The position numbers were made by a program, and so were the translations under genes. From contig SVTP01000017.1 in assembly GCA_015063725.1 (NCBI GenBank), forward strand, positions 1-49,388: a DNA stretch of 49,388 nucleotides, given 5' to 3'. The first letter of the stretch is position 1. Each line of letters starts with the position of its first letter. The stretch is from Oscillospiraceae bacterium. Lineage in GTDB: Bacteria > Bacillota > Clostridia > Oscillospirales > CAG-272. Below, piece after piece: positions 26,703-49,226 of the stretch. The notes beneath the pieces were generated by a model. It was not told the origin of the DNA. It saw only the letters and a list, made by a program, of their open reading frames with translations, and made no database searches.

Positions 26703-27053
26703 ACAGCTCCGCTAAACGGTCGCGCGGTATGTTGCCGAAAGGTATTACCGTGAGGAAAGTCCGGGCTTCATAGGACAGAATAGCTGATAACGTCAGCCAC
26801 GGGTAACCGTCGGGAAAGTGCAACAGAAATAAACCGCCGCTTTGCGGTAAGGATGGAAAGGCGAGGTAAGAGCTCACCCGTTCCTATGGTAACATAGGTC
26901 CGCTGTAAACCCTATTTGAAGCAACACCCTAACCAAGGCTTGTCCGGCACATCTTGAGGGGTGGCACGAAACGTTGTTTCGAAGCTCTGCGGCGACGCAG
27001 GGCGCAGATTGATGACCGTTCACGACAGAACCCGGCTTATAGGCGGGGCTGAT
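26703..27053 (+). ncRNA. rnpB: RNase P RNA, bacterial class A
   Basis: The catalytic RNA that matures tRNA 5' ends. The universally conserved cores are present: GAGGAAAGTCCGGGCT (about 26752-26767) and ACAGAACCCGGCTTATAG near the 3' end. CAGCTCCGC (26704-26712) and GCGGGGCTG (27043-27051) pair as helix P1. The length of about 350 bases and the GGTAAGAGCTCACC element are of the ancestral (A) type. Ends are set from P1, the promoter and the terminator. Confidence 0.95.
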
Positions 27054-27054
27054 T

Positions 27055-27088
27055 AAAAAGGCACTTGCCGTTGGCAAGTGCCTTTTTG
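27055..27088 (+). terminator. Terminator after rnpB
   Basis: AAAAAGGCACTTGCC and GGCAAGTGCCTTTTT around a GTT loop. Confidence 0.85.
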
Positions 27089-40615: not shown

Positions 40616-40641
40616 TTAGGTGTTTCATAACAACCGCATAA

Positions 40642-40725
40642 AATCGGGGGTGCTGCCAGTGGCGGCTGAGATGGCGTGAGCCGAACCCTTTAACCTGATA
40701 CGGATAATGCCGGCGTAGGGAGATA
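40642..40725 (+). promoter_or_regulatory. TPP riboswitch
   Basis: The THI element is clear: GGGGGTGCTG at the 5' side, GGCTGAGATGG (pyrimidine-binding core), ACCCTTTAACCTGAT, and GGATAATGCCGGCGTAGGGA (pyrophosphate-binding core). It senses thiamine pyrophosphate and is followed by an intrinsic terminator, so control is by premature termination. Confidence 0.96.
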
Positions 40726-40760
40726 TACATTTTGTCATTGGGTTCTTTCCCCGACAAATA

Positions 40761-46884: not shown

Positions 46885-46913
46885 TTGCAAAAAACGTTTT
46901 TTTGTGCTATAAT
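46885..46913 (+). promoter_or_regulatory. Promoter of the ABC exporter operon
   Basis: TTGCAA (46885-46890), 17-base spacer, TATAAT (46908-46913). The predicted start near 46920 gives a leader of about 160 bases. Confidence 0.75.
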
Positions 46914-46958
46914 AAGCACTCTATACATTTTAATAAGACGGATCAAGGGGAATACTAT

Positions 46959-47006
46959 TTGCAAAAAATGTATTCTCTCCCCTTTGACGTCGTCAAAAAT
47001 GTGTAG
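46959..47006 (+). CDS. Candidate leader peptide (upstream ORF)
   Basis: A 15-codon frame starting with TTG, 8 bases after AAGGGG, and reading MQKMYSLPFDVVKNV to a TAG. An internal ATG at 46968 gives MYSLPFDVVKNV. Its codons for DVVKNV overlap the antiterminator strand, so a ribosome finishing the peptide would free the terminator, whereas one stalled early would leave the antiterminator free. Translation is not proven; the ribosome binding site is partly buried in stem P1. Confidence 0.4.
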   Translation: MQKMYSLPFDVVKNV

Positions 47007-47029
47007 CAACATTGAGAGATGCATTTTTG

Positions 47030-47061
47030 GTGCGTCTCTTATGAGGCGCACTTTTTATTTT
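47030..47061 (+). terminator. Leader terminator before the ABC exporter
   Basis: Nine pairs (one G-U) around TTAT with a TTTTTATTTT tail, lying between the promoter and the first ABC gene, as expected for an attenuator. Confidence 0.7.
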
Positions 47062-47078
47062 GAAAGGAGAACAGCAAA

Positions 47079-47969
47079 ATGATTTTGGAACTGAAAAACA
47101 TCGACAAATCTTTTGGCGAAAAGGAAGTTCTCAAGGGCGTGACCTTTACGGCTGTTGGCGGCAAGGCATTTGGCCTACTCGGCAGAAACGGTGCCGGTAA
47201 AACAACGTCTATTCGCATTTTGATGAACGTCTTTCCTGCAGACAAGGGAGAGATTTTGATTGACGGAAAACCGATCGATTACGATAAAATCGGCATTGGT
47301 TATCTTCCCGAGGAGAGAGGGCTTTATCCCAAAAAGCTTATTATCGATCAACTTGTGTATTTTGCGGAACTGAAGGGCATGAGCAAAAAGGAAGCCACAA
47401 AAGCGGTTGATTATTGGCTTAACAGACTCGGCATGAGTGAATACCGTAACAAAAAGCTTGACACGCTCTCCAAAGGTAATCAACAAAAAATTCAACTTGT
47501 TACCGCACTCGCTCACGATCCCGATATCGTTATTCTTGACGAGCCCTTCTCGGGGCTTGACCCTGTAAATGCAATGCTCCTTAAGGACGTGGTAAAGGAG
47601 CAGATCGCAAAGGGCAAGATCGTTTTGTTTTCAAGCCACCAAATGAGTTATATAGAGGAATTTTGCGATAGCATTGCAATCATCAATGCAGGCAAGGTTG
47701 CCATCAGTGGAGATCTCCACGATATTAAGAGAAATTATGTTCGTGATAAGCTCGTGGTCAGCACGATGGCACCTGAGCAAATCAAGGCAGACTTGGGAGA
47801 AGCATGCACAGAACGTGAGGATGGAACCTTGCTCATTCAGCTTGCAAATCCCAATGAAAAACAGACTATGATGAAACGACTTGTAGAAACCTATGATATT
47901 GACGAAGTAAAAGTATTCGAGCCTTCCCTCAATGATATTTTCGTTGAGTACGCAGGCGCGCAGGTGTAA
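47079..47969 (+). CDS. ABC transporter ATP-binding protein (NatA/YhaQ-like)
   Basis: A 296-residue ATPase subunit. Walker A is GLLGRNGAGKTT, the signature is LSKGNQQKIQL, Walker B is DIVILDEPFSGLDP, and the switch His lies in VLFSSHQMSY. A C-terminal domain of about 80 residues (from about 215) is typical of exporters paired with ABC-2 permeases such as NatA or YhaQ. The permease follows 12 bases downstream. In this group the known or suspected roles are sodium or drug efflux; the substrate is unknown. The leader attenuator suggests induction by a stress on transcription or translation (inference). Confidence 0.92.
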   Translation: MILELKNIDKSFGEKEVLKGVTFTAVGGKAFGLLGRNGAGKTTSIRILMNVFPADKGEILIDGKPIDYDKIGIGYLPEERGLYPKKLIIDQLVYFAELKGMSKKEATKAVDYWLNRLGMSEYRNKKLDTLSKGNQQKIQLVTALAHDPDIVILDEPFSGLDPVNAMLLKDVVKEQIAKGKIVLFSSHQMSYIEEFCDSIAIINAGKVAISGDLHDIKRNYVRDKLVVSTMAPEQIKADLGEACTEREDGTLLIQLANPNEKQTMMKRLVETYDIDEVKVFEPSLNDIFVEYAGAQV

Positions 47970-47981
47970 GGAGGTAAAAAA

Positions 47982-49226
47982 ATGAGTCAGTTTGGAAAAA
48001 TACTGAAATTTGAACTGAAAGGTTACCTTCGAAACAAGGTGTTTGTTGGAATTACGATCTTTCTTGTAGTTGCCATCGCCATTGTAATGTTCATTCCCAA
48101 TATTATAGCAGCAATTGAATCGGACAATGAGGGTAACGTAACCCCCACCGACCTCCCCACTATGCTTGTTTATTCCGAGAATGAAAACCTTTCTGCCATA
48201 GTAAAAGAATATTTTGGGGACGCTTTTATTGATTATAATGTCCAGATTGCAGAAGGCGACGTTGACGATCTGAAAAATGATATTATAGCCGGCAATGCGG
48301 AATGTGCATTTGTAATAAACAGCGCATCCTCTTATACCTACTACGTAAACAACCTTTCGATGTACGACAGTAATACCGCTATTGCAGATACCGTATTGCA
48401 AGAGGTATACCGTGTAAACGCTATGGTGCAGAGTGGACTTACACCTGAACAGGCAGGAGAGATTATGTCTGTTCAGATTGAAAGCAGCACCGAAACACTC
48501 GGCAAGGATCAAATGCAAAACTTTTTCTATACTTACATAATGATCTTTGCTTTGTATACAGTTATTCTTCTTTACGGGCAGATGGTTGCCACAAACGTTG
48601 CAACCGAAAAAAGCTCCCGTGCTATGGAGCTGTTGGTTACAAGCGCAAAGCCAACGAGCATGATGTTTGGCAAGGTACTTGCTTCTTGCATTGCTGGCTT
48701 TTCACAGCTTGTTATCGTATTTGGCACGGCAATATTGCTCTACAACATCAACAAGGAATCTCTTTCCAATCCTCTTATAGCATCTATTTTTGATATTCCG
48801 ATTGAATTGTTTATCTATCTGATCGTATTCTTTGTGCTTGGCTTCCTTATCTATGCGTTTATGTTTGGCGCAATAGGCTCAACAGCATCCAAGCTGGAGG
48901 ATATCAACACCTCTGTTATGCCCATTACCTACCTTTTCATCATCGCGTTTATGGTGGTCATGTTCTCCATGAGCTCGGGAGAAATTGACAATGCTATAAT
49001 GCGCGTATGCTCTTATATCCCCTTTACCTCACCAATGGCGATGTTTACAAGAATTTGTATGAGTACGGTTGCTTGGTATGAGATTGCAATTGCGATCGTG
49101 ATTCTCATCGCTTCTACGATGGGAATCGGTGTTCTCTCTGCAAAGATCTACCGCGTAGGGGTTCTTCTCTACGGTACTCCTCCAAAGATTGGCACAATCA
49201 TCAAAACAGTATTTAAAAAGCAATAA
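47982..49226 (+). CDS. ABC-2 type permease (NatB/YhaP-like)
   Basis: A 414-residue membrane subunit. The first membrane segment (about 22-42) is followed by an extracellular domain of about 130 residues (NEGNVTPTDLPTML to IESSTETLGKDQM), then five further segments between about 180 and 395. The conserved NVATEKSSRAMELLVTSAKP loop, which contacts the ATPase in ABC-2 permeases, is present. AAGGAGG precedes the start by 8 bases. It works with the ATPase encoded upstream as a two-gene exporter. Confidence 0.92.
   Translation: MSQFGKILKFELKGYLRNKVFVGITIFLVVAIAIVMFIPNIIAAIESDNEGNVTPTDLPTMLVYSENENLSAIVKEYFGDAFIDYNVQIAEGDVDDLKNDIIAGNAECAFVINSASSYTYYVNNLSMYDSNTAIADTVLQEVYRVNAMVQSGLTPEQAGEIMSVQIESSTETLGKDQMQNFFYTYIMIFALYTVILLYGQMVATNVATEKSSRAMELLVTSAKPTSMMFGKVLASCIAGFSQLVIVFGTAILLYNINKESLSNPLIASIFDIPIELFIYLIVFFVLGFLIYAFMFGAIGSTASKLEDINTSVMPITYLFIIAFMVVMFSMSSGEIDNAIMRVCSYIPFTSPMAMFTRICMSTVAWYEIAIAIVILIASTMGIGVLSAKIYRVGVLLYGTPPKIGTIIKTVFKKQ

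Follow-up and report, generated by a model that had tools for sequence, protein, structure and literature searches.

What controls transcription of the two ABC exporter genes near the end of the window, by which we mean the whole stretch of 49,388 nucleotides analyzed here? The original prediction answered with ribosome-mediated attenuation: a promoter is followed by a short upstream open reading frame (uORF) with its own AAGGGG site and by two mutually exclusive stems, an intrinsic terminator and a stem blocking it, and a ribosome on the uORF would choose between them. The promoter, the AAGGGG motif, and the 15-codon frame with its stop at 47006 are all found at the positions claimed, and the downstream genes do encode an ABC ATPase and an ABC-2 permease (Table 1). 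The family comparison described below gives another answer. It indicates that the segment from 46885 to 47056 is a copy of a dispersed RNA, about 140 to 220 nt long, that combines promoter and attenuator, and that the leader belongs to a dispersed family of structured RNAs and is not the private uORF attenuator of one exporter. From the position of the promoter, the transcript would start at or near the first base of the closing stem P1. This stem, P2/P3, the possible S1:S2 helix, and the multicopy nature of the family had no place in the earlier account.

Table 1. Features of the leader and of the genes behind it (window coordinates)
Feature	Position	Strand	Pairing or description	Basis
Promoter	-35 TTGCAA 46885-46890; 17-nt spacer; -10 TATAAT 46908-46913	+	Sigma-70 type; part of the conserved unit	Sequence
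P1, 5' strand	46921-46931	+	Pairs with 46996-47006	Fold and covariation in the 109-row alignment
P1, 3' strand	46996-47006	+		109-row alignment and fold
P2, 5' strand	46937-46951	+	46937-46940 with 46988-46991; 46945-46951 with 46978-46984	Fold; S0:S1' exchange
AAGGGG, possible Shine-Dalgarno sequence of the uORF	46945-46950	+		Sequence
P3 hairpin	46952-46973	+	46952-46955 with 46970-46973; 46957-46960 with 46966-46969	Fold; S0:S1 exchange
uORF of the original prediction	46959-47006	+	TTG start; 15 codons 46959-47003; stop TAG 47004-47006	Sequence; not conserved
S1	46964-46979	+	3' strand of P3, alternative partner S2	Candidate anti-antiterminator strand
S1:S2, possible anti-antiterminator	46964-46979 with 47014-47028	+	Pseudoknot if P1 is closed	Exchange test
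S2	47014-47028	+	Common to anti-antiterminator (with S1) and antiterminator (with S3)	
S2:S3, conserved antiterminator hairpin	47015-47024 with 47030-47039	+		Fold and exchange test
S3:S4, intrinsic terminator	47030-47038 with 47043-47051	+	T-run TTTTT 47052-47056	Sequence; pairing in the 109-row alignment
Shine-Dalgarno sequence AAAGGAG of the ATPase gene	47063-47069	+		Sequence
ABC transporter ATPase gene, natA homologue	47079-47969	+	ABC_tran and DrrA1-3_C; presumably the regulated gene	
ABC-2 type permease gene	47982-49226	+	ABC2_membrane_3; second gene	

Distribution of the element in Clostridia

When the leader was used as a DNA query, matches were found in 38 of 98 genomes, its own included, and among the 30 matching loci that were read, natA was seen only behind the window's copy. 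Twenty-four of these 30 loci were aligned, with five copies carrying long inserts and one truncated copy excluded, and a covariance model was built from the 24. The model recovered five copies in the window's own genome, at 107, 96, 67, 57, and 41 bits, the last being a partial copy. At least 101 of 196 genomes of relatives (E value of 0.01) and at least 99 of 391 genomes drawn from the class (E value of 0.001) carry the element; these counts are lower bounds, since the large searches scored no more than 7 to 14 candidates for each genome. Taken together, the carriers in these two sets represent 36 families. In a phylum sample of 298 genomes, which includes at least nine of the same order or class, no copy was found apart from those in the window's own genome, and this search doubled as a specificity control. 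Ten genomes chosen for their apparent richness were searched closely and had 9 to 30 copies each.

Copies within a genome have diverged. In genome G426, 25 of the 27 copies were compared, and their pairwise identity had a median of 0.59 and a maximum of 0.82. Therefore, the copies do not stem from a recent repeat burst. Tandem pairs on the same strand, 46 to 97 nt apart, were found nine times among 106 matches in six genomes, and in both tandem loci that were read, each copy had its own promoter.

For the structural comparisons, a larger alignment of 109 rows was used, 7 of which are weak matches on the opposite strand to palindromic copies already included. Removal of these 7 and of one locus present twice (L042, the same place as L198), and addition of three element-bearing loci found through natA (L098, L087, and L079, all with Clostridia as hosts), gave 104 members. 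These were drawn from the best-scoring copies; 101 could be divided into segments, and 99 of them are unique.

Architecture of the conserved unit

The order within the unit is promoter, closing stem P1, P2/P3, and then the competing helices P3, S1:S2, S2:S3, and S3:S4. In a best-match scan run with no shuffled control, a -10 box within one mismatch of TATAAT was present in 91 of 101 members, the best spacer was 17 nt in 90, and an extended -10 TG was found in 84. P1 begins 3 to 6 nt past the -10 box in 95 of the 101 (7 nt in the window). The copies also share a stretch resembling GCAACAAU that follows P1, a second strand with a terminal U-run, and the terminator, and a C/U-rich stretch lies 3' of P3. 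The conserved unpaired stretches are AAUA after P1, GGUAAAAA in P3, and CAACAAU after P1; beyond these three, no sharply conserved unpaired pocket was delineated in the family.

In the 109-row alignment, which was fitted to the model's structure, contains the 24 model sequences or their places, and so favors that structure, standard pairs occupy 92.6% of cells, compared with 78.0% after shuffling of columns and at most 48.5% after sliding. Changes on both sides were seen in 27 of 30 pairs of P1, P3, and the terminator. P1 is paired in 97.7% of cells, and 10 of its 11 pairs changed on both sides; its third pair is CG in 43 rows, GC in 41, UA in 19, and AU in 5. The terminator, whose presence with a T-tail the original prediction had described, is paired in 99.7% of cells. 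These patterns point to a conserved structured domain upstream of the expression platform, as in a riboswitch.

Compensating changes in the competing helices

Several strands of the unit have two possible partners: for S1, these are S2 and its partner in P3; for S2, S1 and S3; and for S3, S2 and S4. We swapped strands between members, an exchange expected to cost energy if the strands truly pair. It was costly in 93.6% of member pairs for S1:S2, 78.9% for S2:S3, 93.3% for S3:S4, 92.1% for S0:S1, and 97.8% for S0:S1'. When each of 25 families was represented by a single member, the values were 90.6, 71.2, 85.2, 84.8, and 97.3%, respectively, and 99.0% for P1. Since the helices have strands in common and since pairing was used to delimit P1 and S3/S4, which makes their figures partly circular (S1, S2, S0, and S1' were cut by position), these tests are not independent of one another. 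Of the 99 unique members, 92 have all three of S1:S2, S2:S3, and S3:S4. S2:S3 was the weakest helix in the exchange tests; it reached -5 kcal/mol or better in 92 of the 99 and fell short of this value in the other 7. The compensating changes indicate that a mutually exclusive antiterminator has been kept, as in a transcription attenuator.

The blocking stem of the original prediction (46986-47001 with 47022-47036) behaved differently. Its complementarity is real, but exchange was costly in 42.8% of member pairs, which is chance level (52.6% with one member per family), and the stem served as an internal negative control. The best window structure that contains it has an energy of -35.5 kcal/mol, which falls short of the structure with P1 and the antiterminator by about 10 kcal/mol. 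It was therefore rejected as the conserved antiterminator. An antiterminator and a terminator that exclude each other before the exporter are supported all the same, through 47015-47024/47030-47039.

Folding of the window leader

The leader is stable well beyond chance, with a z score of -5.5 and none of 200 shuffled sequences equal to it. With P1 closed, the fold with the terminator has an energy of -47.6 kcal/mol and that with the antiterminator one of -45.9 kcal/mol, so the two end states are nearly balanced. When the leader was folded at growing lengths, the probability of the antiterminator was 1.00 with the 3' end at 47039 and at 47044, 0.90 at 47051, and 0.23 at 47056.

The S1:S2 helix of the window has about 15 bp and an energy of about -14.4 to -15.5 kcal/mol (the family mean is -16.0). 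With P1 closed and both S1 and S2 kept open, the remaining skeleton gave -41.2 kcal/mol, before the S1:S2 helix and the knot penalty are counted. With P1 open, the best fold combining S1:S2 and the terminator reached only -38.3 kcal/mol, compared with -45.9 for the antiterminator fold. The proposed OFF state would thus depend on a pseudoknot, a structure that the programs used do not score.

The short frame is not a family trait

Short ORFs preceded by a Shine-Dalgarno sequence and ending in the leader were found in 27 of 101 members, compared with 23.1 ± 4.4 in dinucleotide shuffles. In 78 members, a start codon of the proposed frame stands at one of the three aligned positions tested, and 23 have none there. 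By the end of P1, a stop occurs in the proposed frame in 53 members, in the next frame in 50, and in the third in 33; the leader has no stop in 39, 44, and 51 members, respectively. At the aligned stop position, 39 of 109 rows have TAG or TGA, and the middle letter of this codon belongs to a covarying P1 pair. In the window, the MYSL codons of the frame fall in S1, which can pair in P3 or with S2. With the uORF counts and the frame comparison at chance, translation was rejected as the general sensor, and with it uORF attenuation at the family level, including the proposed role of MQKMYSLPFDVVKNV. It is possible that the uORF is used at this one locus only. The expectation that homologues would preserve both stems and the short frame held for the terminator but failed for the frame and the blocking stem.

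Genes downstream of the element

An ATG preceded by a Shine-Dalgarno sequence lies 14 to 36 nt after the T-run in 63 of 101 members, compared with 0 of 88 on the divergent side. Within 220 nt, such an ATG was found in 83 of 101 members and in 11 of 88 divergent controls; 20 of 104 members have no such ORF in this range. The terminator is located between the promoter and the gene, on the same strand and near the start codon, as expected of a transcription attenuator.

Of the 83 downstream proteins, 74 were scanned for domains, and nine with a doubtful reading frame were left out. By raw counts, 16 had BspA-type LRR_5, 5 dockerin, 4 HTH_3, 3 AMP-binding, and 3 ABC_tran domains. ABC exporters are over-represented in this list, because the three ABC_tran proteins are that of the window and two (L098 and L087) found through natA homology. 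In G426, 17 of the 25 copies examined (27 in total) had a Shine-Dalgarno-preceded ORF within 260 nt, and the raw domain counts for these 17 proteins were 8 LRR_5, 3 MraZ, and 1 LytTR.

Among 100 natA-homologue loci (some the same place twice, L138 to L141 excluded, and a few with little upstream sequence), the element stands before natA only in the window, L098, and L087; in L079, it lies elsewhere. Close natA homologues sit in unrelated surroundings without the element. A leader specific to the exporter was rejected on this count of 3 in 100.

Several downstream genes recur. XRE-type (HTH_3) regulator genes follow the element at L143 (positions 68808-68961 of contig C38 in the window's own genome), L179, L205, and L217. 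At L184, L190, L191, L193, and L203, it is followed by genes for small proteins that have FIGH or FCGH close to the start and may be SLOG-like. A short cysteine-rich protein is encoded directly downstream at L164, L172, L176, L216, L220, and L222. In three genomes from different genera, an AMP-binding enzyme with a similar N terminus is encoded behind the element (L161, L166, and L204).

Comparison with known RNA elements

No family of Rfam 15 reached its gathering cutoff on the element in the 27 sequences scanned (the window, the leader alone, 6 loci in E-value mode, and 20 loci at the gathering level), and membership in a named family was rejected, in agreement with the original prediction. 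Sub-threshold matches were RprA in the window (21.2 bits, with a cutoff of 70) and, in single copies, HIV_POL-1_SL in L035 (29.3 bits; cutoff, 54) and Phe_leader in L048 (26.4 bits; cutoff, 55). None of these families recurs below the threshold, and the matches above the cutoff in the 20-locus scan fall outside the element. Elsewhere in the window, Rfam matches mark a TPP riboswitch (40636-40738) and RNase P RNA (26704-27055). An inverted repeat flanking a TATAAT-like box at the extreme contig end (49320-49388) is possibly a transposon end.

The c-di-GMP-I class comprises signaling riboswitches with large regulons. The element resembles riboswitches of this type in being a structured leader in cis, in its predicted transcription attenuation, in its many copies per genome, and in having surface-protein genes among its presumed targets. 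It differs from them in falling below every Rfam cutoff and in its tandem copies, each of which has its own promoter in the loci read. Moreover, no match to GGDEF was found in six carriers (G000, 80% complete; G212, 97%; G238, 100%; G269, 97%; G273, 93%; and G283, 92%), although GGDEF is present in many others. c-di-GMP is therefore unlikely as the general signal and is disfavored as the ligand.

Among attenuators, the vmlR leader of Bacillus subtilis, a uORF attenuator of an ABC-F resistance gene, also has a mutually exclusive anti-antiterminator, antiterminator, and terminator; unlike the element, which is without a conserved uORF and is dispersed before many genes, vmlR needs a translated uORF in its anti-antiterminator (PMC9226507). 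The "mobile attenuators" of Naville and Gautheret are related terminator-bearing sequences before unrelated genes, as the element is, but they are described as highly conserved copies of recent dissemination, whereas the copies of the element have diverged (59% median identity within one genome) and its helices are kept across the family (PMC2965389). Covariation, a terminator, and a position in cis are shared with the orphan riboswitch candidates of comparative-genomics screens, and the element is not described in the passages compared from three of these (PMC11109978, PMC8632094, and PMC8040213). We recognized no description of it in the literature compared; an earlier, unnamed listing in the motif lists of previous screens is possible.

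Proposed mechanism and alternatives

The comparisons above are best read as an orphan riboswitch-type transcription attenuator, an assignment that we consider probable; the switching itself we infer from sequence. As long as P3 holds S1, S2 would pair with S3, the terminator would be blocked, and the downstream gene, here the ABC exporter, would be transcribed. If the upstream domain is rearranged or stabilized, S1 could capture S2, S3 would then pair with S4, and transcription would stop. The P1-P2-P3 domain itself may sense a small molecule or an ion. We favor it as the sensor because no frame is conserved, because the genes behind the element are of many kinds, among which surface proteins and regulators recur, and because the copy number is high. 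High copy number is typical of signaling riboswitches. In the predicted folding of the ligand-free window RNA, the antiterminator prevails as long as the terminator is incomplete; we therefore lean toward an OFF switch, in which the signal would favor termination. Left undisturbed, the domain would tend to allow read-through; termination would follow once S1 captured S2.

The sensor could instead be a protein. An RNA-binding protein acting on P1-P2-P3 as an antiterminator or anti-antiterminator would set S1:S2 against S2:S3, and the diverse downstream genes and the covarying upstream domain are as compatible with a protein as with a ligand. However, the RNA sites of known antiterminator proteins are simpler than this folded domain, and we regard a protein-dependent attenuator as rather unlikely. 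Ribosome-mediated attenuation, in which a ribosome stalled on the frame from 46959 frees or blocks strands and so sets termination, is improbable: the uORFs are at chance (27 of 101 versus 23.1 ± 4.4), there is no frame signature, with 39 of 101 members lacking a stop in that frame, and the start and stop letters sit within conserved RNA pairs. This stands against the presence of a frame, a possible Shine-Dalgarno sequence, and a stop in the window, and against a strand logic that is the same as in the uORF-controlled vmlR leader of B. subtilis (PMC9226507).

The other two alternatives dispense with regulation of the adjacent gene or with switching altogether. That the element is a trans-acting small RNA and its downstream gene incidental is, if anything, less credible still. 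Such an RNA would account for the promoter and terminator of each unit, for tandem copies with separate promoters, and for the C/U-rich stretch after P3, but not for the tight same-strand spacing to a Shine-Dalgarno-preceded ATG (63 of 101 versus 0 of 88 divergent), and the conserved antiterminator would have no role in a plain small RNA. Dispersal before unrelated genes, together with close natA homologues that have no element, would also suit a sequence that, like the "mobile attenuators" of Naville and Gautheret (PMC2965389), is mobile or MITE-like and carries an exapted terminator, without regulated switching. We give this very little credence: the G426 copies (25 of 27 compared; median identity, 0.59; maximum, 0.82) are not near-identical, orientation and spacing to the genes are fixed, and compensating change is found in S1:S2 and S2:S3. 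A search for a phage origin with one exact pattern, a weak test, matched 0 viral contigs.

Returning to the riboswitch-type attenuator, we suggest more tentatively that the element may define a global riboswitch class in Clostridia that is new: a self-contained promoter-sensor-terminator cassette with as many as 30 copies in a genome. It would respond to a signaling molecule other than c-di-GMP, and a strand-exchange pseudoknot would tie to this signal the expression of BspA-type surface proteins, of AbrB/MraZ-like, XRE, and LytTR regulators, and of some ABC exporters. If so, gene control in Clostridia, many of which are uncultured, would include an overlooked layer, an abundant RNA regulator without an Rfam match, and this regulator would point to a signal used by many bacterial families before surface-protein and regulator genes. 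Given the covariance model and the strand map, the element lends itself to direct tests with short RNAs and purified polymerase.

A separate promoter in each of the tandem copies, as seen at L207 (3513-3874) and L171 (1193-1658), is unusual for riboswitches and counts against the riboswitch reading. Besides these two loci, tandem copies on one strand were found on contig C5 of G211, contigs C2, C61, C35, and C11 of G460, C42 and C35 of G440, and C17 and C14 of G372. Across all of them, the spacing is mostly 46 to 62 nt, and the widest spacings were 97 nt in G372 C14 and 124 nt in L171.
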